64,000 nucleotides of DNA, taken from contig JAJDAH010000161.1 of the NCBI GenBank assembly GCA_029261965.1, forward strand, positions 1 to 64,000, written 5' to 3'. Each line of letters starts with the position of its first letter. Position 1 is the stretch's first letter. This DNA comes from Polyangiaceae bacterium. Its GTDB lineage: Bacteria; Myxococcota_A; Polyangia; Polyangiales; Polyangiaceae. Below the pieces are notes generated by a model. It had not been told where the DNA came from. It ran no database searches and saw only the letters and a list, made by a program, of their open reading frames with translations. A program made the position numbers and the translations under genes. This document shows positions 13,108-59,714 of the stretch, in pieces.

Positions 13108-13279
13108 ACTATCTTCGACAGCCGCGGGCCGAGCGCAACCCGCGGCGCCAGAACCCCGGGAGCCGGGCCGGGGGCCCTTTGGCCGGTGGTTTCGGGGAGA
13201 TTTCGCAGCTAGAACGACCGGGTTGTACGCGAGTAGCGATATGGGCATTGTTAGCCGCCAAAGCGAGAGGAAACGCCGC

Positions 13280-15040: not shown

Positions 15041-16398
15041 TGAAGCTCCGTTGGCGTACCGGTTTCGTGTGCGTGCTCGCGATGACAGCGAGCGCGTGCT
15101 CGTGGGCGAGGTTTGATGAAGTCGCGAAAGACGCGCCGGTCGAGGTCATCGACAAACCCGACGAGCTCGGCCAGGGATTTGGTGTCGGTCTGGCCACCGC
15201 CTCGTTGGCGGACAAGGTCCGTCTTTTCGTCGGTGGTAACGACGTCAACTCGCCGGGCGCGATCTACGAGCTCGGCACGGCAGACACGCCGAATCTCGAA
15301 CCCATCGACGTCGGCTCGTGCGACCAGGACCCACAGAGCAATCCCTGTTTCCTGGGTTTTCAGGTGGCTGGCGCGGCGCGACTCACCGGCCCCGACGGCG
15401 AGAGCCACGACCTTTGTTTCGTGCTCGGCATCGGTTCGACGCCGAACACCGGGGACGGAGTGCTGGTCCGTTGTGAAGACAACACCGAGTACGCCATGCC
15501 CGCGCCACCCGACGCGAACGACGATGTCATCGCTCCGGCGATCGACCTCGGTGACTTCGACCGGCTGCGCATCACCGCGGACCGCACGCCGGATCCGGCG
15601 ATTCTCGTCGGCGCCCCGCGTGGCCTCCACGCCTGGTACTACGGGCCGAACAGCTTGAACCCCGTGGAGCTTCGACCAGGCAGCCTCGACCCCGAGCTCA
15701 CTTACGGTTCGGCGGTCGGCATTGCGCTCGTCGGCTCGACCCGGGTGCTGGCGGTGTCCGCACCCGAAGCCGAACAGCTCTGGCTCTTTCGTTCGGACGA
15801 CAACGACAGTGCAGAGCTCCTGGGGTGCATCGGCGGCACGCCGGGCTTCGGGCGCGCCGTCGCGGCCGGAGTCGTCAACGCCGACGCCAACGACGACCTG
15901 GTCGTCGCTGACGCGCGCAACGTTCACGTATTCGATGCCGCGCGGCTGCTCGAGCTCGAGCCTCCGGCGTTCGGTGTCACCGAGTGTTCTCTCGGCTCCT
16001 TGCCACCCGGGGCGCTCATCGCTTCTTTCGGGTGCGGGACCAACATCGACACCGCGGACTGTGACAACTCGGATTTCGGTACCTCGCTCGCCGTCGGCGA
16101 TCTCGACGGTGACGGCGACGGCGAGGTACTCGTTGGCGCTCCGAACATGACCGCTCGGACGCAGACAGGAGCCGGCGCCGTGCTGGTGTACGACGTCGAG
16201 GGCGAGCGCCTCGAGAGAGCGAACGACGTGAAGTTCGTCGCCTCGATCGGAAAGGACGACCGACTCGGAGCCTCGATCACGGCTCCGAATCTCGGGGAGC
16301 GGAGCATCATCGCCGCAGGCATTCCCGGCGACGGCAAGACGGCGCTTTTCTACTGCGGGGCCGTAGTTCCGAAGGAAGCCAGCGCTCGGTGCCAATAG
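15040..16398 (+). CDS. FG-GAP/VCBS repeat lipoprotein
   Basis: A 452-residue predicted lipoprotein (signal peptide ending ASAC). It contains repeated beta-propeller-type blades, with the best calcium-binding FG-GAP unit at SLAVGDLDGDGDGEVLVGAPN (DxDxDG loop) and weaker ones at RLRITADRTPDPAILVGAP and VVNADANDDLVVADARN. These resemble integrin-alpha N-terminal propellers, which mediate adhesion or ligand binding outside the cell. It begins on the stop codon of the PEGA gene, so the two are probably made together and may act together at the surface. Confidence 0.72.
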   Translation: MKLRWRTGFVCVLAMTASACSWARFDEVAKDAPVEVIDKPDELGQGFGVGLATASLADKVRLFVGGNDVNSPGAIYELGTADTPNLEPIDVGSCDQDPQSNPCFLGFQVAGAARLTGPDGESHDLCFVLGIGSTPNTGDGVLVRCEDNTEYAMPAPPDANDDVIAPAIDLGDFDRLRITADRTPDPAILVGAPRGLHAWYYGPNSLNPVELRPGSLDPELTYGSAVGIALVGSTRVLAVSAPEAEQLWLFRSDDNDSAELLGCIGGTPGFGRAVAAGVVNADANDDLVVADARNVHVFDAARLLELEPPAFGVTECSLGSLPPGALIASFGCGTNIDTADCDNSDFGTSLAVGDLDGDGDGEVLVGAPNMTARTQTGAGAVLVYDVEGERLERANDVKFVASIGKDDRLGASITAPNLGERSIIAAGIPGDGKTALFYCGAVVPKEASARCQ

Positions 16399-16428
16399 GG
16401 CGCGATCCGTCGGGTACGTGACAAGGTC

Positions 16429-17859
16429 ATGCTCCCCGAGCGCAAGCAGATTCTCGTCGTTGATGACGAGCCGAACCTCAGACGGGTCCTGAGCGCTCAG
16501 CTCGAACGGGACGGGTGGGAGGTTCACACCGCCGAGGACGGCGCCATGGGGCTCGAAATGCTCCGCGACAACCACATCGACCTGGTCATCACCGATCTCC
16601 GCATGCCCAAAGTCGACGGGATGGAGCTGCTTCGTCAGGCTCGTGCACTCGACGCGGAGCTCCCGGTGGTGATGATCACCGCGCACGGTACGGTCGACAA
16701 CGCCGTCGAGGCGTTGAAGACAGGGGCGTTCGACTACATCACCAAACCGTTCGATCAGGGCGAAGTGCGAGCAATCGTTCGCAAGGCGCTCAAGACGCGC
16801 GACCTTTCCGCCACCGACGCCACGCCGCAAGACCACGCCAACCAGGAGGGGTTCAGATACGGGATCATCGGGCACAGTCCCGCGATCAAGGAACTCTACG
16901 CCATCTTGGATCGCGTGGCGGATACACCGACCACGGTTCTAATCACTGGAGCCAGCGGCACCGGCAAAGAGCTCGTTGCCCGTGCGCTGCACGAGAACTC
17001 GTCGCGTCGCGACATGCCCTTCATCAAGGTCAACTGCGCCGCGATCCCCAAGGATCTGATGGAGAGCGAGCTCTTCGGTTACGAGCGCGGGGCGTTCACC
17101 GGCGCGGTCACATCGAAGCCGGGTCGCTTCGAGCTCGCCAGCGGCGGTACGCTCTTTCTCGACGAGATCGGAAACATCCCCGTCGAAATGCAGGTGAAAC
17201 TACTCCGGGCCCTGCAAGAGAGCGAGTTCGAGCGGGTGGGCGGAATCAAGACCATCAAGGTCGACGTTCGCGTCGTCGCTGCCACGAACAGCGACCTCAA
17301 AAAGGAAATCGCCTCCGGCGGGTTCCGAGAAGACCTGTACTACCGACTGAACGTCGTCCCGCTCCGGCTTCCCCCGCTCTGCGAACGCGGGGCGGAGGAC
17401 ACGCTCTTGCTCGCCCAACATTTCATCCAGAAGTTCAACGCTCGCCTCAAAAAGAACATCGTCGACGCAGACGCCGAAGCGAAAAAACGGCTCACGGAAT
17501 ATCCGTGGCAAGGCAACATTCGTGAACTCGAGAACGTTGTCGAGCGAGCCGTGCTCTTCTGCGACACCACCCAATTGAGGGTTGGTGATCTACCGGCGGA
17601 AGTTCGCGAGGGGCGCGCAGCGCCAGATCCCACGGCCGCGACGGAAGCTGCGAGCTCTGATGGTCTCAAGGAGCAGGTCAAAGCCGCCATGAGCCGGCTG
17701 GAACGCGAGCTCATCGTCAAAGCGCTCGAGCAAACGAAGGGCAACGTGACCCACGCCGCACGATTGCTCAAGATCTCGCGCAAAGGCCTTCAGCTCAAAA
17801 TGAAGGAGCTCGGCTTGCGGGAGTCTGCCGAAACGAAGGAACCGAAAAAGCTGGCGTAG
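16429..17859 (+). CDS. NtrC-family sigma-54 activator with receiver domain
   Basis: A 476-residue response regulator. The receiver domain (1-125) has the acidic pocket Asp12/Asp13, phosphoacceptor Asp56 (VITDLRMPK) and Lys106. The AAA+ domain (145-390) has Walker A GASGTGKE (174-181), the sigma-54-contacting GAFTGA (221-226) intact, Walker [10 protein letters not shown] and the arginine-finger region [12 protein letters not shown] Fis-type helix-turn-helix ends the protein (about 440-462, [17 protein letters not shown]). It should activate sigma-54 promoters when phosphorylated. No histidine kinase is nearby, so it is an orphan regulator here. Confidence 0.95.
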
Positions 17860-43146: not shown

Positions 43147-43842
43147 ATGAGCGCGTTGGCTCCCCGATTCCGCCTCCTCGTACCAGTCGCCGCGACGTTT
43201 GTGGCAGTTTGGCTAGCTTCTGCGCCTGCTCGGGCCCAGTGCGTCGACGAGGAGCTGAAACAACAGCTCATCGGCCGCCGGGCATATCGCGGCGTGGTGC
43301 CCCGGCTTTTCAAGAAATCGCTCCGTCACGAGCTTTCCCCGATGGGGGGGTGGTACGCGGCTGACCTTTCGTCCGGGGCTCCGGTCTACGGCGCCGCCTA
43401 CACGTTTCACCTGACCGAAGAGCTGGGACTCGAAGCGAGCTATTTTCGCACGCAGGAGAAGTCAGAGCTTCTCGACGCTATCATCGACCGCCAACAAGGC
43501 CTGGTGGGCATCGTCAACGAGCCCACCGCCGACGTGAACATTTTCCTCGGTCACCTGGTTTGGTCTCTCGCCTACGGCAAAGTGCGTTGGATGGGCGGCG
43601 GGATCAGTCGATTCGACTTCTATCTGTCTCTCGGGGCTGGTGCGACCGAGCAGCCCGGTTCCCTGGGAGTCACGGGCTCTGGCGGATTCGGATTGAAGTT
43701 CTACATTGCCCAGTGGTTCGCGTTTCGACTGGACGTGCGCGATCACGTGCGAGCCCAACGTGCGGCCCTCGGCGTCGACAAGGTCGTCAACGACGTATCG
43801 CTCATGGGCGGGCTGAGTCTTTTCATTCCATTCAAGAGCTAG
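43147..43842 (+). CDS. outer membrane beta-barrel protein (Myxococcota OMP type)
   Basis: A 231-residue exported protein: signal peptide ending ARAQ, then amphipathic strands ([56 protein letters not shown]) and a terminal strand ending in LSLFIPFKS. This fits the small outer-membrane barrel family common in Myxococcota, which includes the GltA/GltB/GltH and NfsA/NfsB type of proteins; closer assignment is not possible by eye. TATGAT lies five bases before the ATG, so the mRNA may be nearly leaderless. Confidence 0.7.
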
Positions 43843-43886: not shown

Positions 43887-44630
43887 ATGCACAAACTCGT
43901 TCTTCTTCGGCACGGCCAAAGCACCTGGAACCAGGAGAATCGTTTCACCGGATGGGTAGACGTTCCGCTCAGCGAGCAGGGCGTCGAGGAGGCCGGACGC
44001 GCCGGCAAGCTCCTCCGGGAGGAGGGGTTCGTGTTTGACGTCGCCTACACGTCGGTCCTGAAGCGCGCCATAAAGACGCTGTGGATCGTTCTCGAAGAGC
44101 TCGACTCGATGTGGATCCCGGTTCGGCGACACTGGCGCATCAACGAGCGCATGTATGGCGGTTTGCAAGGGCTCGACAAGGCGGAGACCGCCCAGAAGCA
44201 CGGCGACGAGCAGGTCCTCGTCTGGAGACGAAGCTACAGCACGCGCCCACCACCGCTCGACCCTGAGAGCGACATGTGGCCGGCGAAAGACCGCCGCTAT
44301 GCGCAGCTGCGCGAGAGCGACCTTCCGGCGGCGGAGTGCCTGGCGGACACGGTGGCGCGATTTCTTCCTTACTGGGAGGAGGAGATTGCCCCGGTGGTTC
44401 GTAGCGGCAAACGAGTCATCATCACCGCTCACGGCAACAGTCTACGGGCCCTCGTGAAGCACCTGGATTCGGTGAGCGACGACGACATCGTGGGGCTCAA
44501 CATCCCGACCGGGATCCCGCTCGTGTACGAGCTCGACGAGGACCTCAAACCCATCCGGAGTCGCTACTTGGGCGACAGTGCCGCCGCCGAGCGGGCCGCG
44601 GCGGCCGTCGCCGCGCAGGGTAAGGCCTGA
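43887..44630 (+). CDS. gpmA: 2,3-bisphosphoglycerate-dependent phosphoglycerate mutase
   Basis: A 247-residue cofactor-dependent mutase of standard length. Catalytic RHGQSTWN near the N-terminus supplies the phosphohistidine, RRAIKTLW-type sequence ([15 protein letters not shown]) follows, [18 protein letters not shown] is the substrate-binding block, and the second histidine is in [15 protein letters not shown], with [13 protein letters not shown] after it. It interconverts 3- and 2-phosphoglycerate in glycolysis. The ATG at 43887 is 44 bases after the barrel gene. Confidence 0.97.
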
Positions 44631-44655: not shown

Positions 44656-46356
44656 TCAGCGACGCCGTCGGCGCATGCCGAAGCCCACCAGGCCGATACC
44701 CACGAGTGCGGCGAGCGCGCCCGGTGTGGTCGAGCTGGACGAGTTGGCTCCGGGAACCGAGCACGCGCATCCAGAGTCGGAGCCCGGGCCACGGAAGCCC
44801 AGTCTCGCATTGTTGCGCTCGAGCTCGTTGTCGACGTCGGTCGCGTGACTGGTCAGGATGCGCACGGTGCCGTCCTCCTCGAACTCTTCGAGCCGTTCGA
44901 CCCAGGGCATGCTCTCGTCGTCGAACTGGGGCCAGGTGTTGGCATCGGGCATCGCGACCATGCGCCCGTCCGGCAGCTCCATCACGTTGCTGCCGTTGCA
45001 GAGCGTTCGTCGATTGGCGAACGTCGGCGCTGCCACGTCCTCGAGCCCGGCTACCTCGGCGAACTTCGGGTCCATGGTCATCTCATCGGCCGAAATCGTC
45101 GTGAACATACGCGTCAGGTAGGGATTTCGGGCGAAGATGTCCTGCGCGTGTAGCCCCGGGGCGATGATGCGCTCTTGGAGAGCGGCGGCGAATGCGACTC
45201 CGTCCCACGCCGTCTGGTCGATCTGGTCCGTGTAGCAGGACAGGCAACTGTAGAAGTCGTCGCCACTCACACCAGCGGGCCGCGGCAGATACTCCTCGAG
45301 GATCGGCTCGACCAACGGGTGGTTGTATTGGCAGAAGCCCGGCGAACACGAAGCCAGCCCCTGGACCTGCAGCTCGTCGAGCACGAGCATGGGGTCGATC
45401 TCCGTGAACAGGGTCGAATCCCACTCGGTGCTGAAGACTCCGCCGAGGCCGATGATGTTGCTTGGCCCGGCGTACTCCGTGGCGAAGGCATGACCGTCGG
45501 CCATGGCCGAGTCGGCGCCGCCCGAAACGACGTCCGTGTAGTTACTGCCGAAGTTCGCCCAGTCGATGCGGACCGAGTTGAGCACCATGTGGCGGTAGTT
45601 GGTCGGCACGACGCGCTCCTGGCTCAGGAAGAACGTCCGCACTCCCATGTCCGGCGTGGCCGCGATCGCCGTCAGCTTGATCGGGATAGCCGGGGTCGTT
45701 CCTTCGTACCGGAACATGATCGGGTGGATCTCGTCGAGGCCGGCTCCAGCGACCAACTTGACGGCTGCAAAGACCGACCCTTGGTCGACGTAGGGCTGCA
45801 GCATCGCCGGCGCAGACTCCGTCGTCTGGTAGTTGTTTGCGACCAGCCATTCGGTCACCTCGGCCGCAGTGCCGCCCTCGAGCACGACGACATCGAACAC
45901 GCCGACGGTCTTGCGTAGCGCGACGGTGGGGCCTTCCGGCGCTCCTGACATTCCGCCACTGCCATCGTTGAACGAGCCTGGGGCGCCCGTCGCGACACCG
46001 CCGCGCTGTTGGCCAGCGCACATGTCGAAGCTCGTGTTGAACCCGTACGTGGGCACCGTGCCCTGAAGCAGGTTGGAGAACAGCTGGCTGGAGCTGACTT
46101 CGATCTCCGGAATCGACGGCATCGGCACGACCCACGCGAATCGTTCAGGATCGCCCGTGTACTGGATCTGCACGTGAGCTTCGGTCTTGCCGTCGTCGAC
46201 GACGAACAGAATGTTCTCGCCGCTCTGATCGACCGGCATGGCCTGCGGGCCGGAATCGCAGAAGGTGCCTCCGCAAGCGTCGGCCTCGTTGGGGGAAAGG
46301 GCCGTGGCGAGCACGGCGCCGGCCAGGAAGAGTCGAGAGAAGTTTTTCGAGCGCAT
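44656..46356 (-). CDS. DUF2330 protein with MYXO-CTERM-type tail
   Basis: A 566-residue secreted protein. After a signal peptide (ending EADA) the mature protein begins with the DUF2330 hallmark CGGTFCDSGPQAMPVDQ and continues with ILFVVDDGKTEAHVQIQYTG and FAWVVPMPSIPEIEV. Near the C-terminus a cysteine-containing GCACSVPG precedes a hydrophobic helix (LAALVGIGLVGFGM) and an arginine cluster. That layout is the MYXO-CTERM sorting signal, thought to direct processing and surface anchoring in Myxococcota. The ATG at 46356 has an excellent ribosome site (GGAGGA, 8 bases). The function of DUF2330 is unknown. Confidence 0.88.
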   Translation of the reverse strand: MRSKNFSRLFLAGAVLATALSPNEADACGGTFCDSGPQAMPVDQSGENILFVVDDGKTEAHVQIQYTGDPERFAWVVPMPSIPEIEVSSSQLFSNLLQGTVPTYGFNTSFDMCAGQQRGGVATGAPGSFNDGSGGMSGAPEGPTVALRKTVGVFDVVVLEGGTAAEVTEWLVANNYQTTESAPAMLQPYVDQGSVFAAVKLVAGAGLDEIHPIMFRYEGTTPAIPIKLTAIAATPDMGVRTFFLSQERVVPTNYRHMVLNSVRIDWANFGSNYTDVVSGGADSAMADGHAFATEYAGPSNIIGLGGVFSTEWDSTLFTEIDPMLVLDELQVQGLASCSPGFCQYNHPLVEPILEEYLPRPAGVSGDDFYSCLSCYTDQIDQTAWDGVAFAAALQERIIAPGLHAQDIFARNPYLTRMFTTISADEMTMDPKFAEVAGLEDVAAPTFANRRTLCNGSNVMELPDGRMVAMPDANTWPQFDDESMPWVERLEEFEEDGTVRILTSHATDVDNELERNNARLGFRGPGSDSGCACSVPGANSSSSTTPGALAALVGIGLVGFGMRRRRR

Positions 46357-46667
46357 GGTTGCGTTCCTCCGCCACAAAGGGGTGTGCTCGCTCTAGAGCA
46401 ATGCACGTGCCACCCGCACGCCGATGGCAATCCGTGTATTTTCAGTCAGATACGAGCACTAGGGATGACACAAAGTGGCACATTCTCGCGCCAATATGGA
46501 CGGTTCTGCCGCACCTCCCGCGCGCGGCGCTTGCCGGCCGCCCGGCCCGACCGCGGGTGACCTGACCTGAGGCGCGGAGCGGCGCGGCGCCGGCGGCGGT
46601 GGTGGCGGAACGGGGACGCTCCCGGGCGCGTTCACGGTGGCGGCGAATGTTAGGCTCGGAGCAACCC
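46357..46667. other. divergent intergenic region
   Basis: This 311-base gap separates the DUF2330 gene (minus) and the envelope operon (plus). I see no ORF with coding character. It contains a 10-base palindrome GCTCTAGAGC at 46390-46399 and, on the minus strand, a weak TTGTGT-15-TATCTG promoter-like pair upstream of the DUF2330 gene. The right part is extremely GC-rich. A GGAG lies 6 bases before the ATG at 46668. Confidence 0.5.
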
Positions 46668-47411
46668 ATGCGACCGAGAACGACAGCGTTTCTAGTCATC
46701 GCGCCGTTGATCCTTCTCTTGGCCCTCGTGGCGACCGGTCAACCCGCTGGCAAGGCGGACACCGAGTCGACCTCGAAGGAAGCCAAGGAAGAAACAACCG
46801 AGGAACAGGCCGAACCGCTCGACGCCGGATCGGTGGCGATTCCGGATGTCGGCCCCGCGCCGCCAACCATCGCGCGCCGAGATTCGGGGCCTAAGTCCTC
46901 GCCGCTCAATCCGCGGCCGAACGAATTTCCAGACGGGTCGGCGGGCGCGCCGCCGCCAGAGTTCGACAAGATCCTCGGAGACATTGCGGCACTGCGCGCG
47001 CGGGTGGCCGCGCTCACGACGACGATGTTTGCGAGCAAGCTACGCGTCATCGTGCAGACCGACGATGCGGAGTACGCCCGGATTCAGTCGTTCGTCGTGA
47101 CGCTCGACGACGGCGTCGTGTTTCGAGCTCCACCGAAGTTCACCGCGGAAGACGAGAAGACGGTGTTCGAGCACGCGGTCGCGCCGGGGCATCACGTGAT
47201 TGGCGTCGAAATCGAGCGCACCGACGCGCGCAACCGCGCATACAAGACCTACCAAGCGACCAAGCTCTCGGTCATCGTGCCCGAAGGAAAGCACCTCGAG
47301 GCTCACGTCGAGGTCGAAGAGGATTCGGACATGGCGGAGGACTTTCCGGACGACGAAGACGGCGAGTACGACCTTCGCGTTCAAATGCGCGCACGAGTGA
47401 TCAGCGACTGA
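46668..47411 (+). CDS. membrane-anchored protein heading the TPR operon
   Basis: A 247-residue protein with an N-terminal signal anchor (about 5-25, TAFLVIAPLILLLALVATG), an acidic and proline-rich spacer (26-90), and a folded C-terminal domain (about 95-247) with beta-type sequence (LRVIVQTDDAEYARIQSFVVTLDDGVVF, VIGVEIERTDARNR, HLEAHVEVEED). I do not recognise a family. The stop overlaps the next start (TGATG), so it is translated with the three TPR genes and may anchor or cap their complex. Confidence 0.6.
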   Translation: MRPRTTAFLVIAPLILLLALVATGQPAGKADTESTSKEAKEETTEEQAEPLDAGSVAIPDVGPAPPTIARRDSGPKSSPLNPRPNEFPDGSAGAPPPEFDKILGDIAALRARVAALTTTMFASKLRVIVQTDDAEYARIQSFVVTLDDGVVFRAPPKFTAEDEKTVFEHAVAPGHHVIGVEIERTDARNRAYKTYQATKLSVIVPEGKHLEAHVEVEEDSDMAEDFPDDEDGEYDLRVQMRARVISD

Positions 47412-49495
47412 TGCACTTGCGAGGTGTAGTTTCGGTATTGGCCGCGGGCACGACGCTGCTTCTGGCTGGAGTGCCTCGTGCTCAGCCCGCGGACCCGCCG
47501 GTCGAGCCGCCGCCCGCCGCCGCCGACACCGACACCGCGTCGCCTCCCACGACGCCAGCGCCTCCGGACGCGCCCCCAGAGTCTGCCAGACCGACTCCGA
47601 AGAGCAAACCAGCACACAAGAGCAAACCCGACACGCGCTCGGACGCGATGAAGGCCTATGACGAGGCACTCAAAGCGCGGCGCCTCGCGGCGACGGCGCC
47701 ACTCAGTCGTCCACGCCTGCGCGCCGAGCTCGAAAAGGCGGAACAGAAGCTCTCTACCGGGAGGCGAGACGAGGCCATCGGTGACCTGGTCACGCTCGTC
47801 GAGTCGCCTCGATTCCAGGCATTCCGGCGCTCCGACGAGGGGCGGGCGATGCTGTTCTTGCTTGGTGACGCGCTTGGTCGTGCCGGCGCCTACGAACCAG
47901 CACGTGGGTACCTGACCGAGCTGCTCACCGGTGACCCCAAGGACGTTTGGTATCGCCGAGCGGTACGCACGCTCGTGGATCTCGGGCTCGAGAGCGGGCG
48001 GCCCCAGATGTTCCTCGCGGATCTCGCCAAGGTTCCGGCGAACGCGCCCGAGGAGGCGCGCGGTGACATCGCCTATCTGTCGGGGCGGAGCCTCGAAAAG
48101 CGCCGGCGATCGCGCTCGGCCCTCGCCGAATACGCGAAGGTGACGCCGCGGTCCCGTTTCTGGGCGCAGGCGACTTACCTATCGGGGCTCATCGAAGTCG
48201 AGAGACGAAGGTTCAAGGCGGGCGAGAACCTATTTTGCAAAGTTGCAAACCCGAAGCTCACGCCACGCATGGCGCCACTCTTCGGCGGGAGTGACTTTTT
48301 CAAAATTCGTGACCTGGCGCGCCTCGCCCTCGGCCGCGTTGCCCACGAAGAGTTTCGTTTCGACGACGCCCGCTACTACTACTACCTGGTTCCGAGCGAC
48401 TCCGAACGCTTGCCCGAGGCGCTGTACGAATCTGCGACGTCTCGCTACGAAAAAAAGGACTACGGTTCCGCAAGAGACCTGATGAACGAGCTGAAAGCGC
48501 TCGATCGCAACCACGCCTACGAGGACGAAGCATGGTTGCTCGACGCGTTCATCGACCTGGCGACCTGCGAGTTTCCTGCTGCCGACGTCAAGCTCGAGCA
48601 GTTCCTTTCGCGATACGAGCCGGTTCGAGACGCTGCCCGGCGGTTGTCGAAGGGCAACCGGGCCATGCAGCAACTCGTCGAGGCCGTCAGAGTCGGAGCG
48701 GACCCGGCAGCGGCCGGTACTGGCGTCAACGCACCAGTAGCGCGCGCATTGGGCGCGCTTCTGCGGCTCGATGCCGAATACGCGACGGCGTCGCGTCAGG
48801 TTGCCCAGGTCGAGCACCAAATCAGCGGTCTGCGCCGCACGATGGAGGAGCTGGACGACACGGGTCGCCGGTTGACGAACCCAAAAGAGATCCGCGCCCA
48901 ACACGAGGGACCTCTCGGCGCGTCGCCGACGGAAAAGGCCGAGCGCATCGAGGCGCAGCTCGCCGAGCTTCGGCGTTTGATTCGCGCAGCTGAACGGGCT
49001 TCGGCCGGAGGCAAGAAGGGCGGAGGTCAGGTTGGCGATTTGCGAAAACAGCTCGAGGCACTGGAGATCCGGGCGCGTGCTGCTCGTGCCGCCATTGCAC
49101 CGAATGCTCGCGGGGCTCCGAGCAACGAGGGCAAGGATCTGGCGAGTGTGATCAGCGCGGACCGAGCCCGCGCGACCGAGCTCTACGCCGAAGCCGAAAA
49201 GCTTCGCCGCCGACTCGTCGCCGAGCAGCTCGACCTGGCCAAGGACGCGCTGGTTCGGCTCGACCGCCGGCTGAGCCGACTGCTATCGCGGGCCAGGCTC
49301 GGGAAGATCGAGACGGTGCTCGGAAAGAAGCGCGCACTCGAGGTCGAAGTCGAAGCTCTCAGCCAGGGGTACCTGCCGCAGGCGGCGATCGACTCGCTCG
49401 ACGCGGCGCGATACCTGAAAGACGACGAAGAGTACTGGCCGTTCGACGGTGAAGACTGGGCCGACGAATACGTCGGCGGAGAAGGCTTGCGATGA
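47411..49495 (+). CDS. periplasmic TPR/coiled-coil protein, GltC/NfsC-like
   Basis: A 694-residue exported protein: signal peptide (1-24, ending PRAQ), a proline/alanine/lysine segment (27-75), TPR-type helices from about 90 to 430 (DEAIGDLVTLVESPRF, LFLLGDALGRAGAYEPA, ALYESATSRYEKKDYGSARDL), then coiled coil (about 450-640). Length and position, directly before the two next TPR genes, resemble GltC (about 670 residues) of the Myxococcus gliding machinery and its paralog NfsC. The assignment is by architecture and order, not by alignment. ATGA overlap with the next gene. Confidence 0.6.
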   Translation: MHLRGVVSVLAAGTTLLLAGVPRAQPADPPVEPPPAAADTDTASPPTTPAPPDAPPESARPTPKSKPAHKSKPDTRSDAMKAYDEALKARRLAATAPLSRPRLRAELEKAEQKLSTGRRDEAIGDLVTLVESPRFQAFRRSDEGRAMLFLLGDALGRAGAYEPARGYLTELLTGDPKDVWYRRAVRTLVDLGLESGRPQMFLADLAKVPANAPEEARGDIAYLSGRSLEKRRRSRSALAEYAKVTPRSRFWAQATYLSGLIEVERRRFKAGENLFCKVANPKLTPRMAPLFGGSDFFKIRDLARLALGRVAHEEFRFDDARYYYYLVPSDSERLPEALYESATSRYEKKDYGSARDLMNELKALDRNHAYEDEAWLLDAFIDLATCEFPAADVKLEQFLSRYEPVRDAARRLSKGNRAMQQLVEAVRVGADPAAAGTGVNAPVARALGALLRLDAEYATASRQVAQVEHQISGLRRTMEELDDTGRRLTNPKEIRAQHEGPLGASPTEKAERIEAQLAELRRLIRAAERASAGGKKGGGQVGDLRKQLEALEIRARAARAAIAPNARGAPSNEGKDLASVISADRARATELYAEAEKLRRRLVAEQLDLAKDALVRLDRRLSRLLSRARLGKIETVLGKKRALEVEVEALSQGYLPQAAIDSLDAARYLKDDEEYWPFDGEDWADEYVGGEGLR

Positions 49496-52400
49496 GACGC
49501 GTCATCGCCGCGGCCGCGCTCGTTTTCGTCCTGCCGGGCGTTGCTCTCGCCCAAGATGCGCCGAGCGACATCGGTACGGCAACGACCGCCGCAGGCGAAA
49601 AATCGACGATCAAGCCCGTCGGCGAACGCAAGATCGGAAAGCGCAAGCGGCCGACGGTCGAAAAGCGTGGCGACAAAAAGGCCCGGAAGAAGCGGGCAAT
49701 ACAGGTCAGCTACCAAATTCCCGCACGGCTCCGCGCGGCGCTCGAGAGAAAGATCGACGCCCGCATTTCCCGCAATGTCGCCGAAGCCAAGAGGCTCCGT
49801 AAGGTGGCGATTCGTCTTCTCCGCAAGTTCCTCCGCGAGACGCCGAAGGACGTGCCGGAAGTGCCCGAGGCGCTGCTGCGTCTTGGTGAGCTCGAATGGG
49901 AGCATGCCCGCGACCAATTCCTCCTCGATTTCAACCGCTGGGAGAAGACACCCGCGGACCAACGCGGGGCTCCGCCGAGTCCGAAGTATTCGCAACCGCG
50001 AAAGCGATTCGCGCGCGTGTTGTCCGACTACAAGTCGTTTCGTGACTACGATCTCGCGCTCTACGTCGATGGTTTCCTAGCGCAGGAGGAGGGCAAGCTC
50101 GAAGAGTCGCTCGACCGCTTCAACAAGATCCTCGCGTGGTTCCCCGGAAGTCGCTTCGTGCCGGATGCGCACATGGTCCGAGCCGAGTTCGAGTTCACGA
50201 AGGAGTACCCCAACTATTCGATTGCCTTTGCGGAGTACGAGCGCGTGCTCAAGCACAAGGACACGGGTCTGCACGATATCGCGCTATTCAAGAGTGCGTG
50301 GTGCCTCTGGCGCATGGGTCAGAGCGACGAAGCGGCCCGCCGCTTTTTGGGTGTTTTCAAGCGGACCGACGAGGCCGGGAAAACGGCCAAGGGCCGCCAA
50401 AGCGAGCTGGACGAGCTCCAACAAGAGGCGCTGAAGAATCTCGTCGCGGTGTTCGTGGAGGACGAGCGTCACTCCGCCCGCGACATGCACCGCTTCCTCG
50501 TGAAAGCGGGTGGCGAGAAGTTTGCTGGTCGGATCGTCAAGGCGCTGGCCGAAGCTTTCTACGACCAGTCGCACTACGAGCGCGGAGTGGAGGCGTACCG
50601 GTTGCTGCTCAAGCTCGAGCCGAGCGATCCAGAAGGCTACAAGTGGGCGCTCGCCGTAGCTCAAGGTCACTCCACGATGGAGGACTGGAAGCAGCTAGAG
50701 AAAGATTATCGATGGGTGCTCAAGGAGTTCACGGTACCCGCCAGCAAACCCGGTCAGCCCCCGAAGCAGGGCGGCGCATGGACGCGAGTGCAAAAAGCTC
50801 CGACGCTCAAACGCGCCGAAGACGCGATTGAGCAACAGCTACGTGACGACGGCATCGGGCTGCATGCAAAGGCTCAGGACGACAAGACGAGTCGCGCGGA
50901 ATACGACGGAGCTTCGAGGCTCTACTCAGCCTACCTGAGCCATTTTTCGAAGCACCCCAAGGCCTACGAAGTTTTTTTCAACCATGGGGAAATCAACTTC
51001 TACCACCTGGAGAATGACGAAGCGGCGGCCGACAGCTACCTGGCCGCCGTGCGGTTGCAGCCTCAGGGCAAGTATTCTCGGGACGCGCTCTACAACGCCC
51101 TGGCAGCGCTCGAGCAAGCACGCGTCAACGAGTTCGAGGCGGCGAAGAAGAAGGGTGAGAAGCAGAAGGAATCGCCGACGGACAAGAAGCTCACCGAAGC
51201 GATGGAGCTCTACGTCGCGACGTATCCGAACGACAAGGACGTGCCCGAGCTCCTCTTTCGGCAAGGAAAGCTCTACTACGACTACGAGGTTTACGATCCG
51301 GCCGTTCGGCAGTGGGGTTTGCTGCTAGAAAAGTACCCCAACAGCAAGTTCGCCGGCGGTGCCGGCGAGCTCATTCTCGATTCGTTCAACAAGAGCAAGG
51401 ACTACGACAACATCGAGACGTGGGCGAGGCGGCTCAAGTCGGCACCTTCGTTTCAAACGCCGCAGCAGCAGAAGCGGCTCGACACGCTCATCGTTCAAGC
51501 GGTCTTCAAGCTCGGCGAGCAGCATGGGGAGCGCGGCGAGCACAAGCTGGCTGCAGCGGCATACCTGCGCGCAGCGCGAGAGTTTCCCCAGGAGCCCCGC
51601 GCGGCCCAGGCCGCGGTCAACGCCGAGGTCAGCGCGCGTAAAGCGGGGGATCTGGCGACCCTCGACGCGGCTGCAGCTCTGTTGATCCGGGATCACAAGG
51701 CGCGGGACGAAGCCGCTCAGGGCGTCTGGATCGCCGCCACCACGTATCAATCCGTGGGCCTTTTCTCGCGGGCTGCCGAGTATCACGAGGTGATCGTCGC
51801 CACCTGGCCGAAGTACGAGCACCACAAGGACGCGGCCTACAACGCCGTGCTGCTTCGCACGACCACCGGAGATCACGCCAAGGCGATCGAGGACGGCAAC
51901 CAGTACAAGAAGCACTACCCGCGCGAAAAGGAAGTCGAAGAAGTCACTTTCCTCATGGGCAAAGCCCACGAGAAGGCCGAAAAATGGAAGGACGCCGAGC
52001 GCCTGTACTCGCGCTATTCCCGCTCGGCTCGAAGTAAGAGTGCAGAGGTCGAGGCGCTGGTGCGCTTGGCCACCGTTCGCGTCGAGCTCTCGGATGATCG
52101 GGGGGCCAAGTCCGCGCTCTCGATGGCCGTGCGTGTCGGCCGAGGGCACAAGAAGTCCCTGGACGAAGATGGGAAGTACTTCGCGGCGAAAGCCCGCTAC
52201 ATGCAGGGTGAGCGCATTCTGGCCGACTTCGAAAAGGTGAAAATCGAAGGGAGCGTCGAGCAGCTCAAGACGCGGCTGAAGAAGAAGAGCAAGTTGCTCA
52301 AACAAGCCGCCGACACGTTTCTGGATGCAGTGGAGATGGGGGTAGCCGAATGGACGACCGCCTCGCTCTACCAAATCGGGTTCACCTACGAATCGTTCTC

Positions 52401-52929
52401 GCAGGCGCTGCTCAACTCGCCACCACCTGAAAGTCTGAGCCCTCCGCAAGCGGAGCTCTACCGTCAGCAGATCGACGAGTTCGTCATCCCGATCGAGGAG
52501 CGAAGCATCGAGGCCTACGAAAGTGGCTGGTTGAAGGCCGTCGAGCTCGGCATCTTCAATTCCTGGACGGCCAAGATGCGCGCCGCGCTCGGACGTCTCA
52601 CCTCCGAAATGTATCCCCCGATGAAAGAGATCGGGTTCAAGCTGCTCTCGAAGGGGCCGTCCCCGATGCCGGCGCTGATCGAAGGCCCTCGACGCGGAAA
52701 GGATGGTCGCAGCCTTCACTATTTCGTCGGTCAGGAGCCACCCGAGGAGAAAGACGCGGAGGAGGAAGCGGAGACGGGAGAGAAGCCCACGGCCGGTGAA
52801 AAAGCCGCGCCTGAGCCGGAAAAGGCCGATGCCGCCGGCGCGGAGAAACCCGCGGCGGAAAGCCCAGCACCGGCGAAACCAGCGAAGCCGGCACCTGCGA
52901 AGAAGAAGCGCCGCGGGAGGGCACGGTGA
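49492..52929 (+). CDS. large periplasmic TPR protein, GltD (AgmU)/NfsD-like
   Basis: A 1145-residue exported protein: signal peptide (1-21, ending ALAQ), a basic segment (30-65), then a long array of TPR-like units to about residue 1040 (for example QEEGKLEESLDRFNKILAWFPGSRF, YERGVEAYRLLLKLEPSDPEG, LLFRQGKLYYDYEVYDPAVRQW, FLMGKAHEKAEKWKDAERLY), ending in a lysine/alanine/glutamate/proline tail. AgmU/GltD, a periplasmic TPR protein of about 1200 residues in the gliding complex, and NfsD have the same build. Role by analogy: bridging inner-membrane motor and outer-membrane complex. It is coupled to both neighbours by four-base overlaps. Confidence 0.65.
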   Translation: MRRVIAAAALVFVLPGVALAQDAPSDIGTATTAAGEKSTIKPVGERKIGKRKRPTVEKRGDKKARKKRAIQVSYQIPARLRAALERKIDARISRNVAEAKRLRKVAIRLLRKFLRETPKDVPEVPEALLRLGELEWEHARDQFLLDFNRWEKTPADQRGAPPSPKYSQPRKRFARVLSDYKSFRDYDLALYVDGFLAQEEGKLEESLDRFNKILAWFPGSRFVPDAHMVRAEFEFTKEYPNYSIAFAEYERVLKHKDTGLHDIALFKSAWCLWRMGQSDEAARRFLGVFKRTDEAGKTAKGRQSELDELQQEALKNLVAVFVEDERHSARDMHRFLVKAGGEKFAGRIVKALAEAFYDQSHYERGVEAYRLLLKLEPSDPEGYKWALAVAQGHSTMEDWKQLEKDYRWVLKEFTVPASKPGQPPKQGGAWTRVQKAPTLKRAEDAIEQQLRDDGIGLHAKAQDDKTSRAEYDGASRLYSAYLSHFSKHPKAYEVFFNHGEINFYHLENDEAAADSYLAAVRLQPQGKYSRDALYNALAALEQARVNEFEAAKKKGEKQKESPTDKKLTEAMELYVATYPNDKDVPELLFRQGKLYYDYEVYDPAVRQWGLLLEKYPNSKFAGGAGELILDSFNKSKDYDNIETWARRLKSAPSFQTPQQQKRLDTLIVQAVFKLGEQHGERGEHKLAAAAYLRAAREFPQEPRAAQAAVNAEVSARKAGDLATLDAAAALLIRDHKARDEAAQGVWIAATTYQSVGLFSRAAEYHEVIVATWPKYEHHKDAAYNAVLLRTTTGDHAKAIEDGNQYKKHYPREKEVEEVTFLMGKAHEKAEKWKDAERLYSRYSRSARSKSAEVEALVRLATVRVELSDDRGAKSALSMAVRVGRGHKKSLDEDGKYFAAKARYMQGERILADFEKVKIEGSVEQLKTRLKKKSKLLKQAADTFLDAVEMGVAEWTTASLYQIGFTYESFSQALLNSPPPESLSPPQAELYRQQIDEFVIPIEERSIEAYESGWLKAVELGIFNSWTAKMRAALGRLTSEMYPPMKEIGFKLLSKGPSPMPALIEGPRRGKDGRSLHYFVGQEPPEEKDAEEEAETGEKPTAGEKAAPEPEKADAAGAEKPAAESPAPAKPAKPAPAKKKRRGRAR

Positions 52930-54044
52930 GCCGAGGGCGCCGTTGGGTGCCGCTGCTGCGTCGCGTGACGCTGCTGGCCGCTCTCGGCCTCGGCGCCTGT
53001 GGTGGTGCTGCAGCCGTGCAAAAGGCGCCCGACTTGCCGCCAGCCAACCCCCAGGCCGTCAACAAGATGATGCAGGCGGTGGCTGCTGCGAAAGAGAGCG
53101 ACGGCGTGGACCGTGCGATCAAGCTCCTGCGCGAAGCCATCAAGACCGATCCGCGTCTCTGGGAGGCGGAATACGATCTCGGTCTACTGCTCGTTCGAAC
53201 CGGCGATCTGACGGCGAGTGAAAAGCACTTGGCCAAGGCATTCGATCTGGCGCCGAACGCCGAGGACGTCGCCGTAGCGCTGGCCGAAGTGCGTCGACGT
53301 CTGGGCAACGCGAAAGGCGCCGCGGAGGTGCTCGAGCCCTTCGTGCGCGCGAACCCGAAGGCGCTGACGGCGAGGATCGCCCTGGTGAGCGCTTTGCGCG
53401 AGAGCGGGCGCGTGGACGAGGCCATCGTGCAAGCTCGCGAGGTCCTCGTGCGGCGCTCGGACGATCCGAACGCCCTGGCGGAGCTGGCGATGAGCCATCT
53501 CGCGCGAGGTGAAATCGACACGGCCCAACTCTTGGCGGAGGAGGCCCTCAAGCAGTCCGAAGGCAGTGCGATTGCTGAACGCACCGCGGGAATGGTCGCG
53601 CTCAAGCGAGGGGACGACGCGATCGCGTTCCAGCACTTCGCCAAAGCGTCGCAGCTCGATCCCAAGGACACGACCGCCAGACTCAACACCGGGACCGTCT
53701 TGTTGCAGGCTGGGGTCTACGACAGAGCGGGCGAGCAGTTTCAAGCGGTGCTCGAGATCAAACCCAACGACGTCCTCGCGAAGCTCGGACTAGCGGCGGC
53801 GCTGCGCGGGGTGGGGACCCGCGAGAAGTCGGGTCCGTGGACCGAGGCGGAAAAGCTGCTCGAGGACGTCCTCGCCAAGGAGCCGAACAATTTCGCTGCG
53901 GCTTTCAATCTCGCGGTCCTTTACGCCGATTTCATGCAGCGGCCGGCCGAAGCGAAGGTTCACTACGAGAATTTTCTCGACAATTCTCCGAGTGACCATC
54001 CCCGGCGAGCCGATGCACAAAAAGCCCTCGCCGGCATGAAATAG
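52926..54044 (+). CDS. TPR lipoprotein, GltE (AglT)/NfsE-like
   Basis: A 372-residue outer-membrane lipoprotein candidate: signal peptide with lipobox LGAC (Cys25), then at least seven TPR units (AIKLLREAIKTDPRLWEAEYDLGLLLVRTGDL, ASEKHLAKAFDLAPNAEDV, RAGEQFQAVLEIKPNDVLAKLGL, AAFNLAVLYADFMQRPAEAK). TPR lipoproteins next to the large TPR protein are the GltD-GltE (AgmU-AglT) and NfsD-NfsE pattern. GTG start overlapping the previous stop (GTGA). Last gene of the operon; motor proteins AglR/Q/S and GltF-J are not nearby. Confidence 0.65.
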   Translation: MSRGRRWVPLLRRVTLLAALGLGACGGAAAVQKAPDLPPANPQAVNKMMQAVAAAKESDGVDRAIKLLREAIKTDPRLWEAEYDLGLLLVRTGDLTASEKHLAKAFDLAPNAEDVAVALAEVRRRLGNAKGAAEVLEPFVRANPKALTARIALVSALRESGRVDEAIVQAREVLVRRSDDPNALAELAMSHLARGEIDTAQLLAEEALKQSEGSAIAERTAGMVALKRGDDAIAFQHFAKASQLDPKDTTARLNTGTVLLQAGVYDRAGEQFQAVLEIKPNDVLAKLGLAAALRGVGTREKSGPWTEAEKLLEDVLAKEPNNFAAAFNLAVLYADFMQRPAEAKVHYENFLDNSPSDHPRRADAQKALAGMK

Positions 54045-57146: not shown

Positions 57147-57890
57147 CTAGCGCGTGGCGAAAGCGTACCGGAGGCTCAACCCGCCCATCCAGCCCAGGGC
57201 CGGCTCGGTGCTTCGAACGCGTTCGAACGTCGCACCGAAGTTGCGCACACCCCCCGTGGCAGCGATCGCGTAGTGCGGGTTTTTCATGTACCACTCGAAC
57301 CCCAGCATCCCGCCGTAGTACAGGTTCAGTTGGTCCGAATCTGGAAAGCCGTAGACACGCAGGGCGTCTTGCTTGACGCGGGCAAAGCCGCCGCTTGCCT
57401 GAAGATACATGCCGAAGCGATCGGCTGGCCGGATCGTGAACCTGAGCCCCGCTCCGAACCCGAACCCGACGTAGGCACGGGGCTCCGGTGGTGGGTTGGC
57501 GAAGTGCGTGTCGGAGAAGAAGATGTCGCCTTCCGCGAACGGCATGAACCAGTCCCAAACCTCGTAACCCGATGCGAGCCGGATCCACGGTCCCCCGGGG
57601 GAGACCTCGCTCATCGTGCCGATGTGGCCGAGCGCGCCGGTGGTCATCTCGATGACGATGCCGCGATAGGCGGGCGGGGGCGGTGGCGCATCGTCCACGC
57701 TCGAGCCGGTATCTCGGGTGTCGGTGACGGCCCGGGCGTCGAGCCATGCCTCGATTTCCTCCTGCGACGGATCCCCCGCGGCGTCGTCATCCGCGGCCTG
57801 CACCGGTGCGGCGACGCTCAGGATCGCGGCGGCAAGGCCCAGCGCGGTCGGGAGGCGAACCAGCGCGGTCGGAAGGGGAAACACAGCCAT
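57147..57890 (-). CDS. outer membrane beta-barrel-like protein
   Basis: A 247-residue exported protein: signal peptide (1-32, ending PVQAA), an acidic segment and a proline run (DDAPPPPPAY), then barrel-type strands (GIVIEMTTGALGHIG, RAYVGFGFGAGLRFTIRPAD, GMYLQASGGFARV, LYYGGMLGFEWYM, WMGGLSLRYAFATR) ending with an aromatic-containing terminal strand. A short repeat in the signal peptide comes from a 21-base duplication. No family is assigned. It is 35 bases downstream of pyrE on the same strand. Confidence 0.65.
   Translation of the reverse strand: MAVFPLPTALVRLPTALGLAAAILSVAAPVQAADDDAAGDPSQEEIEAWLDARAVTDTRDTGSSVDDAPPPPPAYRGIVIEMTTGALGHIGTMSEVSPGGPWIRLASGYEVWDWFMPFAEGDIFFSDTHFANPPPEPRAYVGFGFGAGLRFTIRPADRFGMYLQASGGFARVKQDALRVYGFPDSDQLNLYYGGMLGFEWYMKNPHYAIAATGGVRNFGATFERVRSTEPALGWMGGLSLRYAFATR
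57839..57880 (-). repeat. 21-base tandem duplication in a signal peptide
   Basis: Two adjacent 21-base copies (57839-57859 and 57860-57880) differ at two positions and encode the repeated LPTAL block of the barrel protein's leader. The repeat is a multiple of three and keeps the frame. Confidence 0.75.
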
Positions 57891-58489: not shown

Positions 58490-59017
58490 TCAGCGCCGTC
58501 GGCTCTTCTTTTTCTTGCCGCGGGCGCCCTTGCGAAGCGCGGGCACCACGGGGGGCGGTGGTCGCCGCTTGCCGGTTTTCCTCTTGGACTTTTTCGCCGA
58601 GGCCTTCGGGGCTTTTCTTGCCGGAGCCGCTTTCGGCGCGGGCTTGGCTTTCGGGCGCGCCGCTTTCCCGGCGGTGGCCTTTCGCGATGCTACTTCCGGT
58701 TCGCCGTCGGTTTGGACTTGCCCGCGCACCAGGGCGCCCACTGCAATTCCGATTTGCGGCGCGGAGAGGTCACCAACGACACGACCGGCGGCCTCGACGA
58801 CCACCGCTGTCGTGCCTCGGATGTCGCCGGATACCGAGCCGTTGATGCTCACATGCGCGCCGCTGACGGTTCCGAGCACTGCGGAGCCGTCTTCGAGCAC
58901 GACGTCGCCACTGACGCTGAGGTCCCCCTCGATCCGGCCTCCGACTCGCACACTGCCGTCGCCGTGCACATTGCCGCGCACGACCGTTCCGGGACCAATC
59001 ACTGAATCTTGGGCCAT
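58490..59017 (-). CDS. bactofilin with long basic tail
   Basis: About 175 residues. Residues 5-105 are the bactofilin right-handed beta-helix with regular six-residue turns (GPGTVVRGNVHGDGSVRVGG, GDLSVSGDVVLEDGSAVLG, VSGDIRGTTAVVVEAAG). The tail (about 110-175) is rich in lysine, arginine, proline and alanine and could bind DNA, membrane or a partner. Bactofilins polymerise without nucleotide into scaffolds. ATG 59017 has GAGGGA just upstream; GTG 59029 would overlap the previous stop (GTGA). Confidence 0.88.
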   Translation of the reverse strand: MAQDSVIGPGTVVRGNVHGDGSVRVGGRIEGDLSVSGDVVLEDGSAVLGTVSGAHVSINGSVSGDIRGTTAVVVEAAGRVVGDLSAPQIGIAVGALVRGQVQTDGEPEVASRKATAGKAARPKAKPAPKAAPARKAPKASAKKSKRKTGKRRPPPPVVPALRKGARGKKKKSRRR

Positions 59018-59025
59018 GGGTTCCC

Positions 59026-59340
59026 TCACACATCCATGTCGACGTTGCCCTTGAACGAGGCACCGTCTGCAATGGTCAATCGGGCCGCCTTGACGTCCCC
59101 GATGAGGCGTCCGCCGGCTTGGATGTCGACTCGCTCCTGGGCGGTGACGCTGCCAGTGACCTGGCCGGCAACCGTCAGCGACGAGCCAGTCACGTCGCTT
59201 TCGACGACACCGTCGGCGCCTACGGAGATCGCGTCCGAGCTCGTCAGAGCCCCGCGTACCGTTCCATGAACCACGACTTCTTCGTCGCTGCTCAGCTCCC
59301 CTTCAACCGTCAACCCGCTGCCGATCACCGTGCCTGCCAT
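59026..59340 (-). CDS. bactofilin (middle gene)
   Basis: A 104-residue minimal bactofilin, almost entirely beta-helix: VIGSGLTVEGELSSDEEVVV, HGTVRGALTSSDAISVGADG, VAGQVTGSVTAQERVDIQAG, RLIGDVKAARLTIADG. Short tails at both ends suggest a core filament subunit. ATG 59340 is chosen because it starts directly at the first strand. The gene overlaps or abuts the next bactofilin. Confidence 0.9.
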   Translation of the reverse strand: MAGTVIGSGLTVEGELSSDEEVVVHGTVRGALTSSDAISVGADGVVESDVTGSSLTVAGQVTGSVTAQERVDIQAGGRLIGDVKAARLTIADGASFKGNVDMDV

Positions 59341-59372
59341 TTTTCGCTTCTCCAAAGGGTGAGCCCGGGGGC

Positions 59373-59714
59373 TCACAGTTCGAGGTCGAACCTCGCGTCG
59401 AGCACCACCGCAACGCGGGCGCCCTGTTCGATCGAGATTTCTGATCCCGTGAGCTCTCCCCGAACGACGGCGCTCGAGCGCACGCGGATGGGGCCTTCCG
59501 TATTCGCGTTGCCGATGAGCGACCCCGAGATGTCGAGAGCACCCGCTCGAAAGTCGCCTTCGACGACGCCGCCATCGGCGATTTCGCTCGGCCCGTCGAC
59601 CGAGATGTCACCGCGTACCGTTCCCTCGACCCGAACGCCCCCGTCGCCGGAAACGTGCCCGATGAGGCGGGTGGACGCACCGATGACACTCAGATTCGAA
59701 GTTGCTCTAGCCAT
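59373..59714 (-). CDS. bactofilin (first gene)
   Basis: A 113-residue bactofilin with a short leader and beta-helix turns VIGASTRLIGHVSGDGGVRVEG, DISVDGPSEIADGGVVEGDF, RAGALDISGSLIGNANTEGP and VRGELTGSEISIEQGA. Three bactofilins in one operon recall bacN-bacO-bacP of Myxococcus xanthus, which together form scaffolds that position the ParABC/PadC chromosome-segregation system. No par genes are seen here. Confidence 0.9.
   Translation of the reverse strand: MARATSNLSVIGASTRLIGHVSGDGGVRVEGTVRGDISVDGPSEIADGGVVEGDFRAGALDISGSLIGNANTEGPIRVRSSAVVRGELTGSEISIEQGARVAVVLDARFDLEL

Follow-up and report, generated by a model that had tools for sequence, protein, structure and literature searches.

A g1-containing operon of a Polyangiaceae bacterium encodes distant GltC, GltD and GltE homologues and probably belongs to a second Agl-Glt/Nfs-type envelope machine

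Gene content of the operon

Positions 46,668–54,044 of contig JAJDAH010000161.1 (assembly GCA_029261965.1, Polyangiaceae bacterium) hold a four-gene operon that encodes a protein we term g1, followed by proteins resembling GltC/NfsC, GltD/NfsD and GltE/NfsE of the Myxococcus gliding (Glt) and spore-coat (Nfs) machines. The window, that is, the whole stretch of DNA that was analysed, comprises positions 1 to 64,000 of this contig. The operon genes are as follows, with lengths in amino acids (aa) and TPR standing for tetratricopeptide repeat.

46668..47411, + strand: g1 (247 aa); signal peptide, Pro-rich disorder, helix and beta-sandwich; without Pfam or NCBIfam match; AlphaFold2 (AF2) model and 29-row orthologue alignment
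47411..49495, + strand: GltC/NfsC-like exported TPR/coiled-coil protein (694 aa); NCBIfam NF033756 and profile-profile comparison with canonical GltC
49492..52929, + strand: GltD/NfsD-like exported TPR protein (1145 aa); profile-profile comparison with canonical GltD
52926..54044, + strand: GltE/NfsE-like TPR lipoprotein (372 aa); profile-profile comparison with canonical GltE

The four open reading frames, their sizes and their overlaps were as the original prediction, made from the sequence alone, had given them, and an independent codon-usage gene caller recovered the same four genes, assigning later starts to genes 2 and 4. The g1 and gltC-like genes share one base (TGATG at 47409-47413), and four-base overlaps join the gltC-like to the gltD-like gene (49492-49495) and the gltD-like to the gltE-like gene (52926-52929). 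The gltE-like gene starts with GTG and encodes an LGAC lipobox. Signal sequences could be read by eye in proteins 1-3 (g1, C and D). The predicted TPR build held for proteins 3 and 4 (D and E), which have Pfam TPR matches, whereas protein 2 (C) gave sub-threshold TPR matches only. The order of the operon is not a matter of chance, because the same order is kept across dozens of genomes. A sigma-70 promoter scan of the operon returned zero matches and was uninformative.

Homology of C, D and E to Glt/Nfs proteins

To place the three TPR proteins, profiles built for the window-type families (set 2) were compared in hhalign with those of the canonical Glt type (set 1), with unlike TPR families as controls. 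Like-with-like comparisons gave E-values of 8e-40 for C2-C1, 7e-97 over 1021 columns for D2-D1, 1e-52 for E2-E1 and 1e-58 for G2-G1 (the unlinked GltG-type protein described below), the matches being near full length for D and E. Unlike TPR pairs reached 7e-10 or weaker over at most 260 columns, with one exception, E2 against a TPR lipoprotein family, which at 2e-30 was the best TPR control. Because the like-with-like E-values lie far beyond those of most unlike TPR pairs, the window proteins C, D and E are, on profile evidence, true but distant homologues of GltC/NfsC, GltD/NfsD and GltE/NfsE. The central claim of the original prediction, homology to Glt/Nfs, is supported; in the profile comparisons, unlike TPR families gave weaker matches than the Glt counterparts.

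Single-sequence matches to NCBIfam models were weaker. The window C protein scored 90.2 bits (E 1.3e-25) against the GltC model NF033756, with a cut-off of 450; the E protein scored 74 bits against GltE (cut-off 225), where a generic TPR model scores higher, so that this match alone is not decisive; and GltG2 scored 50 bits against GltG (cut-off 650). The canonical set of the same genome also lies under the equivalog cut-offs for C, E and G, which may have been set with close relatives of Myxococcus in mind. NCBIfam GltD gave zero match for the window D protein; since canonical GltD was likewise unmatched, NCBIfam seems to be without a GltD model. Protein 3 (D) passes the cut-off of the NCBIfam YbgF model. 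Orthologues of the GltD-like protein showed 31-70% identity in 52 named loci, and a plasmid search for this protein found none.

A conserved barrel-g1-C-D-E-F-G module in relatives

A gene for an outer-membrane barrel, which the original prediction had likened to GltA/B, lies upstream of the operon and is separated from it by two genes.

43147..43842, + strand: outer-membrane beta-barrel, GltA/B-type partner (231 aa); NCBIfam TIGR04565 and synteny in relatives
43887-44630: gpmA, between the barrel gene and g1
44656-46377, reverse strand: DUF2330/MYXO-CTERM gene, between gpmA and g1

The barrel scored 88.5 bits against TIGR04565, above the cut-off of 60. We assign it to the module because relatives hold it directly upstream of g1, as is the case in most of them (L036, L047-L050, L062, L100 and others); an intermediate state, with gpmA alone between barrel and g1, is found at L038 and L099. 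Score and synteny together bear out the predicted barrel partner. Members of this barrel family are neighbours of gltC also at L165, L185 and L190, which belong to other set types.

Orthologous loci came from named assemblies of Myxococcota (Polyangiaceae, Labilithrix, Sandaracinaceae and unclassified metagenome-assembled genomes), some metagenome-assembled loci being labelled Deltaproteobacteria or Proteobacteria only. Across Polyangiales and other Myxococcota, the consensus order began with one or two barrels and continued through g1, C, D, E, F and G to a lipoprotein. C lay immediately upstream of D in 35 of 49 loci with an upstream gene on the contig, g1 immediately upstream of C in 27/30 and the barrel immediately upstream of g1 in 18/25; F followed E in 28 of 41 loci, and G followed F in 20 of 25.

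The F2-G2 half is unlinked but co-occurs with the operon

The original prediction had noted the lack of GltF-J and motor genes nearby. This is correct for the contig as regards motor and GltG genes, but F2 and G2 exist elsewhere in the genome. A GltG-type query from a relative identified an orthologue (E 2.7e-122) on contig C271 of the window's genome (G000), where F2 and G2, which overlap by four bases, are grouped with a lipoprotein-like gene of 276 aa; the absence of GltF and GltG from the genome is thereby ruled out. F2 and G2 are adjacent in the intact modules of relatives too, so that the GltG homologue of set 2 is unlinked in the window's genome and linked beside F in relatives.

Set-2 proteins were then called across 39 genomes of the window's family and order (GltD at E <= 1e-57, GltG at E <= 1e-45). 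Each genome had either both D2 and G2 (17 genomes) or neither of them (22 genomes). Simple counting gives such a pattern a probability of 1/C(39,17), or ~2e-11, a figure that ignores kinship, the unlinked cases being the informative ones. One such case, G020, has the same split on a single 1.19 Mb contig, with D2 and G2 ~1 Mb apart and still co-occurring. An assembly artefact is therefore an unlikely cause of the split, and L038 and L099 agree.

Structure prediction for a GltG2 orthologue gave an FHA-like domain (fold matches at Z 6-7.5), one transmembrane helix, a disordered Gly-rich linker and a domain like the C-terminal domain of TonB (Z up to 8.7). The FHA domain was undetected by Pfam. 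As modelled, the layout of GltG2 is that of GltG/NfsG.

g1 is a conserved companion of the C protein

In the AF2 model of g1, the signal peptide and a disordered, low-complexity Pro-rich stretch are followed by a helix (99-120) and a beta-sandwich (124-245), with predicted local distance difference test scores mostly >90. The protein had been described as anchored. Its orthologues have, by eye in the 29-row alignment, a conserved AxA-Q type cleavage context, and a cleaved signal peptide and an exported periplasmic protein are more likely than a membrane anchor. The description of the first gene as one without a known family held: there was no Pfam or NCBIfam match, no Pfam family common to its 29 members and no PDB sequence relative, and the best hits of the fold search, transthyretin/Ig-like and PepT2-like sandwiches, had Z ~8, a value that counts as noise by the tool's own statement for models without a clear match. 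In set 3 and in G039, homologues of g1 matched its profile with E-values of 1e-10 to 2e-21, and none was found in any set-1 locus examined. From its export, its fold and its constant place next to C, we infer that g1 acts as a periplasmic adaptor.

Other Glt-type sets and AglRQS-type motors in the genome

The genome search proposed with the original prediction, for gltF-J and aglRQS, returned F2-G2, a canonical set, a GltJ-like gene and two AglRQS-type motors. The canonical run, gltC-D-E-F-G, lies on contig C475 (GltC 273 bits, GltG 325 bits, CglF 23 bits). A third Glt-type set on C74 (locus L188, 81-11290) is arranged g1-C-D-E-...-G; it adjoins what appears by eye to be an extracytoplasmic function (ECF) sigma/anti-sigma pair, an arrangement also seen at L191. 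The GltJ-like gene is unlinked, on C79. Among outgroup modules, L102, L106, L109, L113 and L200 have, in divergent orientation upstream of the barrels, a gene for a second GltG/GltJ-like protein with a TonB-like tail.

Six MotA/TolQ genes were found in the window's genome. On C179 (locus L164, 2-4255), two TolQ genes lie head to head, and each is accompanied by two ExbD/TolR partners; one of the partners reaches the contig edge. Both group with glt-linked motors of G039 (support 0.94), apart from the Tol-Pal and Ton-type TolQ proteins of the genome, and on this grouping C179 is assigned two AglRQS-type TolQ-ExbD-ExbD motors side by side. In G039, from another class of the phylum, contig C78 (locus L186, 5442-18003) carries g1-C-D-E-(F)-TolQ-ExbD-ExbD-G in one run, which looks like an intact core complex. 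Because the genome also holds a canonical gltC-D-E-F-G run and two AglRQS-type motors, the window set is an extra, paralogous set and not the canonical Glt core of its genome.

g1 marks a separate clade

In a tree of concatenated C, D and E proteins from 47 loci, set 2 was recovered as monophyletic with support of 100/100. Every locus with g1, whether from set 2, from set 3 or on contig C78 of G039, fell into a single clade (Shimodaira–Hasegawa-like approximate likelihood ratio test 99.5, ultrafast bootstrap 100), with set 1 apart. As judged from these sequences, g1 marks one supported clade among the loci compared. It had been suggested that the operon is an ancestral or repurposed version of the Glt/Nfs module. 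The set sits inside a derived clade, which leaves an ancestral state unsupported; it may have been repurposed.

Proposed function

From these results we propose that the products of the operon make up the outer-membrane/periplasmic half of a second, divergent Agl-Glt/Nfs-type envelope machine ('g1-type'), which would be motor-driven and move surface cargo; we put the probability of this reading at about 60%. We favour a driven machine that acts on surface cargo because the core parts corresponding to the Myxococcus xanthus chain are present in the genome for set 2. GltG2 would be an inner-membrane protein seated on a proton motor of the AglRQS type, and its TonB-like tip would reach the periplasmic TPR rods D and C, with g1 serving as a beta-sandwich adaptor. 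The rods would link through lipoprotein E to the barrel, and motor strokes could in this way be passed to the cell surface, so that a surface polymer or adhesin is moved or positioned, as in Glt gliding or Nfs spore-coat wrapping. Set 2 itself probably serves neither canonical gliding nor the canonical Nfs function.

Several points weigh against this proposal. No motor gene is linked to set 2, either in the window's genome or among its close relatives, and G039 alone joins a motor to a g1-type set in a single run; which motor drives set 2, if any, is a matter of inference, an AglRQS-type one being the candidate. The likeness of F2 to GltF is weak (profile probability 39%), the GltC and GltE scores are far under the NCBIfam equivalog cut-offs, and no GltH, GltI or GltK counterpart was identified for set 2, H, I and K not having been searched with their own models. 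The assembly, moreover, consists of 480 contigs and is 96% complete and 3.5% contaminated.

The main rival is a Glt-derived scaffold that has lost its motor and whose proteins would form an undriven complex across the envelope, serving perhaps to assemble the outer membrane or polysaccharide. It draws on the lack of motor genes beside set 2 in this genome and its close relatives, where distant G039 has them beside a related set, and on the FHA-like domain of GltG2 that lies under Pfam detection. We consider it unlikely, as GltG2 is kept in every genome with C-D-E and its homologue binds the motor subunit AglR in M. xanthus; the window's genome, furthermore, has two AglRQS-type motors, and the M. 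xanthus motor is likewise unlinked and shared by Glt and Nfs (PMC3858216). Set 2 could also simply be the gliding or spore-coat system of the organism, since its component types are the same and the nfs order, barrel-C-D-E-F-G, is similar (PMC2875238). This is less probable still: the canonical set is nearer M. xanthus GltC and GltG (273 and 325 bits vs 90 and 50), the window set falls in a different, well-supported clade, its E and G differ in size from those of Nfs and Glt, and g1 is present. That the likeness reflects common TPR repeats only, in an unrelated TPR envelope system (BamD/YbgF/PilW-like), is very improbable. In its favour, generic TPR models outscore GltE for protein 4, and protein 3 exceeds the YbgF cut-off; against it, the like-with-like and off-diagonal profile comparisons rule out generic TPR proteins, and non-TPR partners (barrel and GltG2) lie within the same conserved module.

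Beyond the motor-driven reading of set 2, we tentatively suggest, at slightly less than even odds, that g1 is a subunit, not described before, that defines a branch of its own among motor-driven Glt-type machines, with a task other than gliding or spore-coat wrapping, and that at least two such machines (set 2 and the C74 set) run alongside the canonical machine within one cell, sharing AglRQS-type motors. One Glt-type set is now defined by a conserved protein of its own, g1, by the full list of its genes, by its place in the tree and by an unlinked GltG with which it co-occurs perfectly. This definition names genes for learning what else the AglRQS motor class moves on bacterial surfaces.

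Other genes in the window

A small outer-membrane protein at 57147-57890 (- strand) has a weak CglE match (NF033755, 30 bits, E 4e-7, cut-off 70); its gene has RlmI as a conserved neighbour in both L036 and L038, and in L036 pyrE as well. Three consecutive small genes at 58490-59714 (- strand), bactofilin-like by eye, adjoin pyrE. At 13241-17859, genes for an exported TPR protein, a possible lipoprotein and a response regulator stand in a row, with weak generic TPR matches only.

Comparison with known systems

In M. xanthus, AglRQS drives GltG/NfsG, and coupling through other Glt/Nfs proteins moves slime or spore-coat polymer (PMC3858216, PMC3169522); GltA, GltB and GltC form an outer-membrane/periplasm subcomplex (PMC4488436). 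The gltC-D-E order that the original prediction had given for Myxococcus applies to nfs and to the canonical sets in relatives but not to M. xanthus glt, where gltC is not adjacent to gltD-E and lies in the separate G2 cluster (PMC3169522). With the Agl-Glt machine (GltA-K, AglRQS), set 2 shares GltC, GltD and GltE homologues, a GltA/B-type barrel and an unlinked GltG with the FHA-like/transmembrane/TonB-like layout; an AglRQS-type motor is present in the genome. It differs in having g1 and shorter E and G proteins, in its separate clade, in the separate presence of a canonical set in the same genome, and in falling under the equivalog cut-offs (90/450, 74/225 and 50/650 bits for GltC, GltE and GltG).

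The Nfs system (nfsA-H, G3 cluster) resembles the intact modules of relatives in its order, whereas set 2 has g1 between barrel and C and a terminal lipoprotein where Nfs has the NfsH barrel. The E protein measures 372 aa, compared with 471-499 aa in Nfs and Glt, and G ~458 aa, compared with 640-682 aa. This comparison with Nfs covered gene order, protein sizes and g1.

Glt-type sets exist in several copies, and M. xanthus itself has G4, G5 and motor M2 of unknown function (PMC3169522); one paper mentions the G5 locus tag MXAN_1327, only within a 'Tad-like pilus' list, which did not help. A core complex of gltC, D, E and G with aglRQS is known from Gammaproteobacteria, Geobacter and Fibrobacter (Luciano et al. 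2011, PMC3169522), together with one unnamed gene said to be without homologues in Myxococcales. Set 2 has the same core composition, and the G039 run unites g1-C-D-E-F, three motor genes and G, as does the published core complex with its additional gene, whereas such pieces lie apart from one another in the window's genome. Because the equivalog cut-offs are unmet, the canonical set is separate and the clade is distinct, we do not file set 2 as Glt or Nfs; at the level of homology, its sequences place it as a member of the Agl-Glt/Nfs-type core family.

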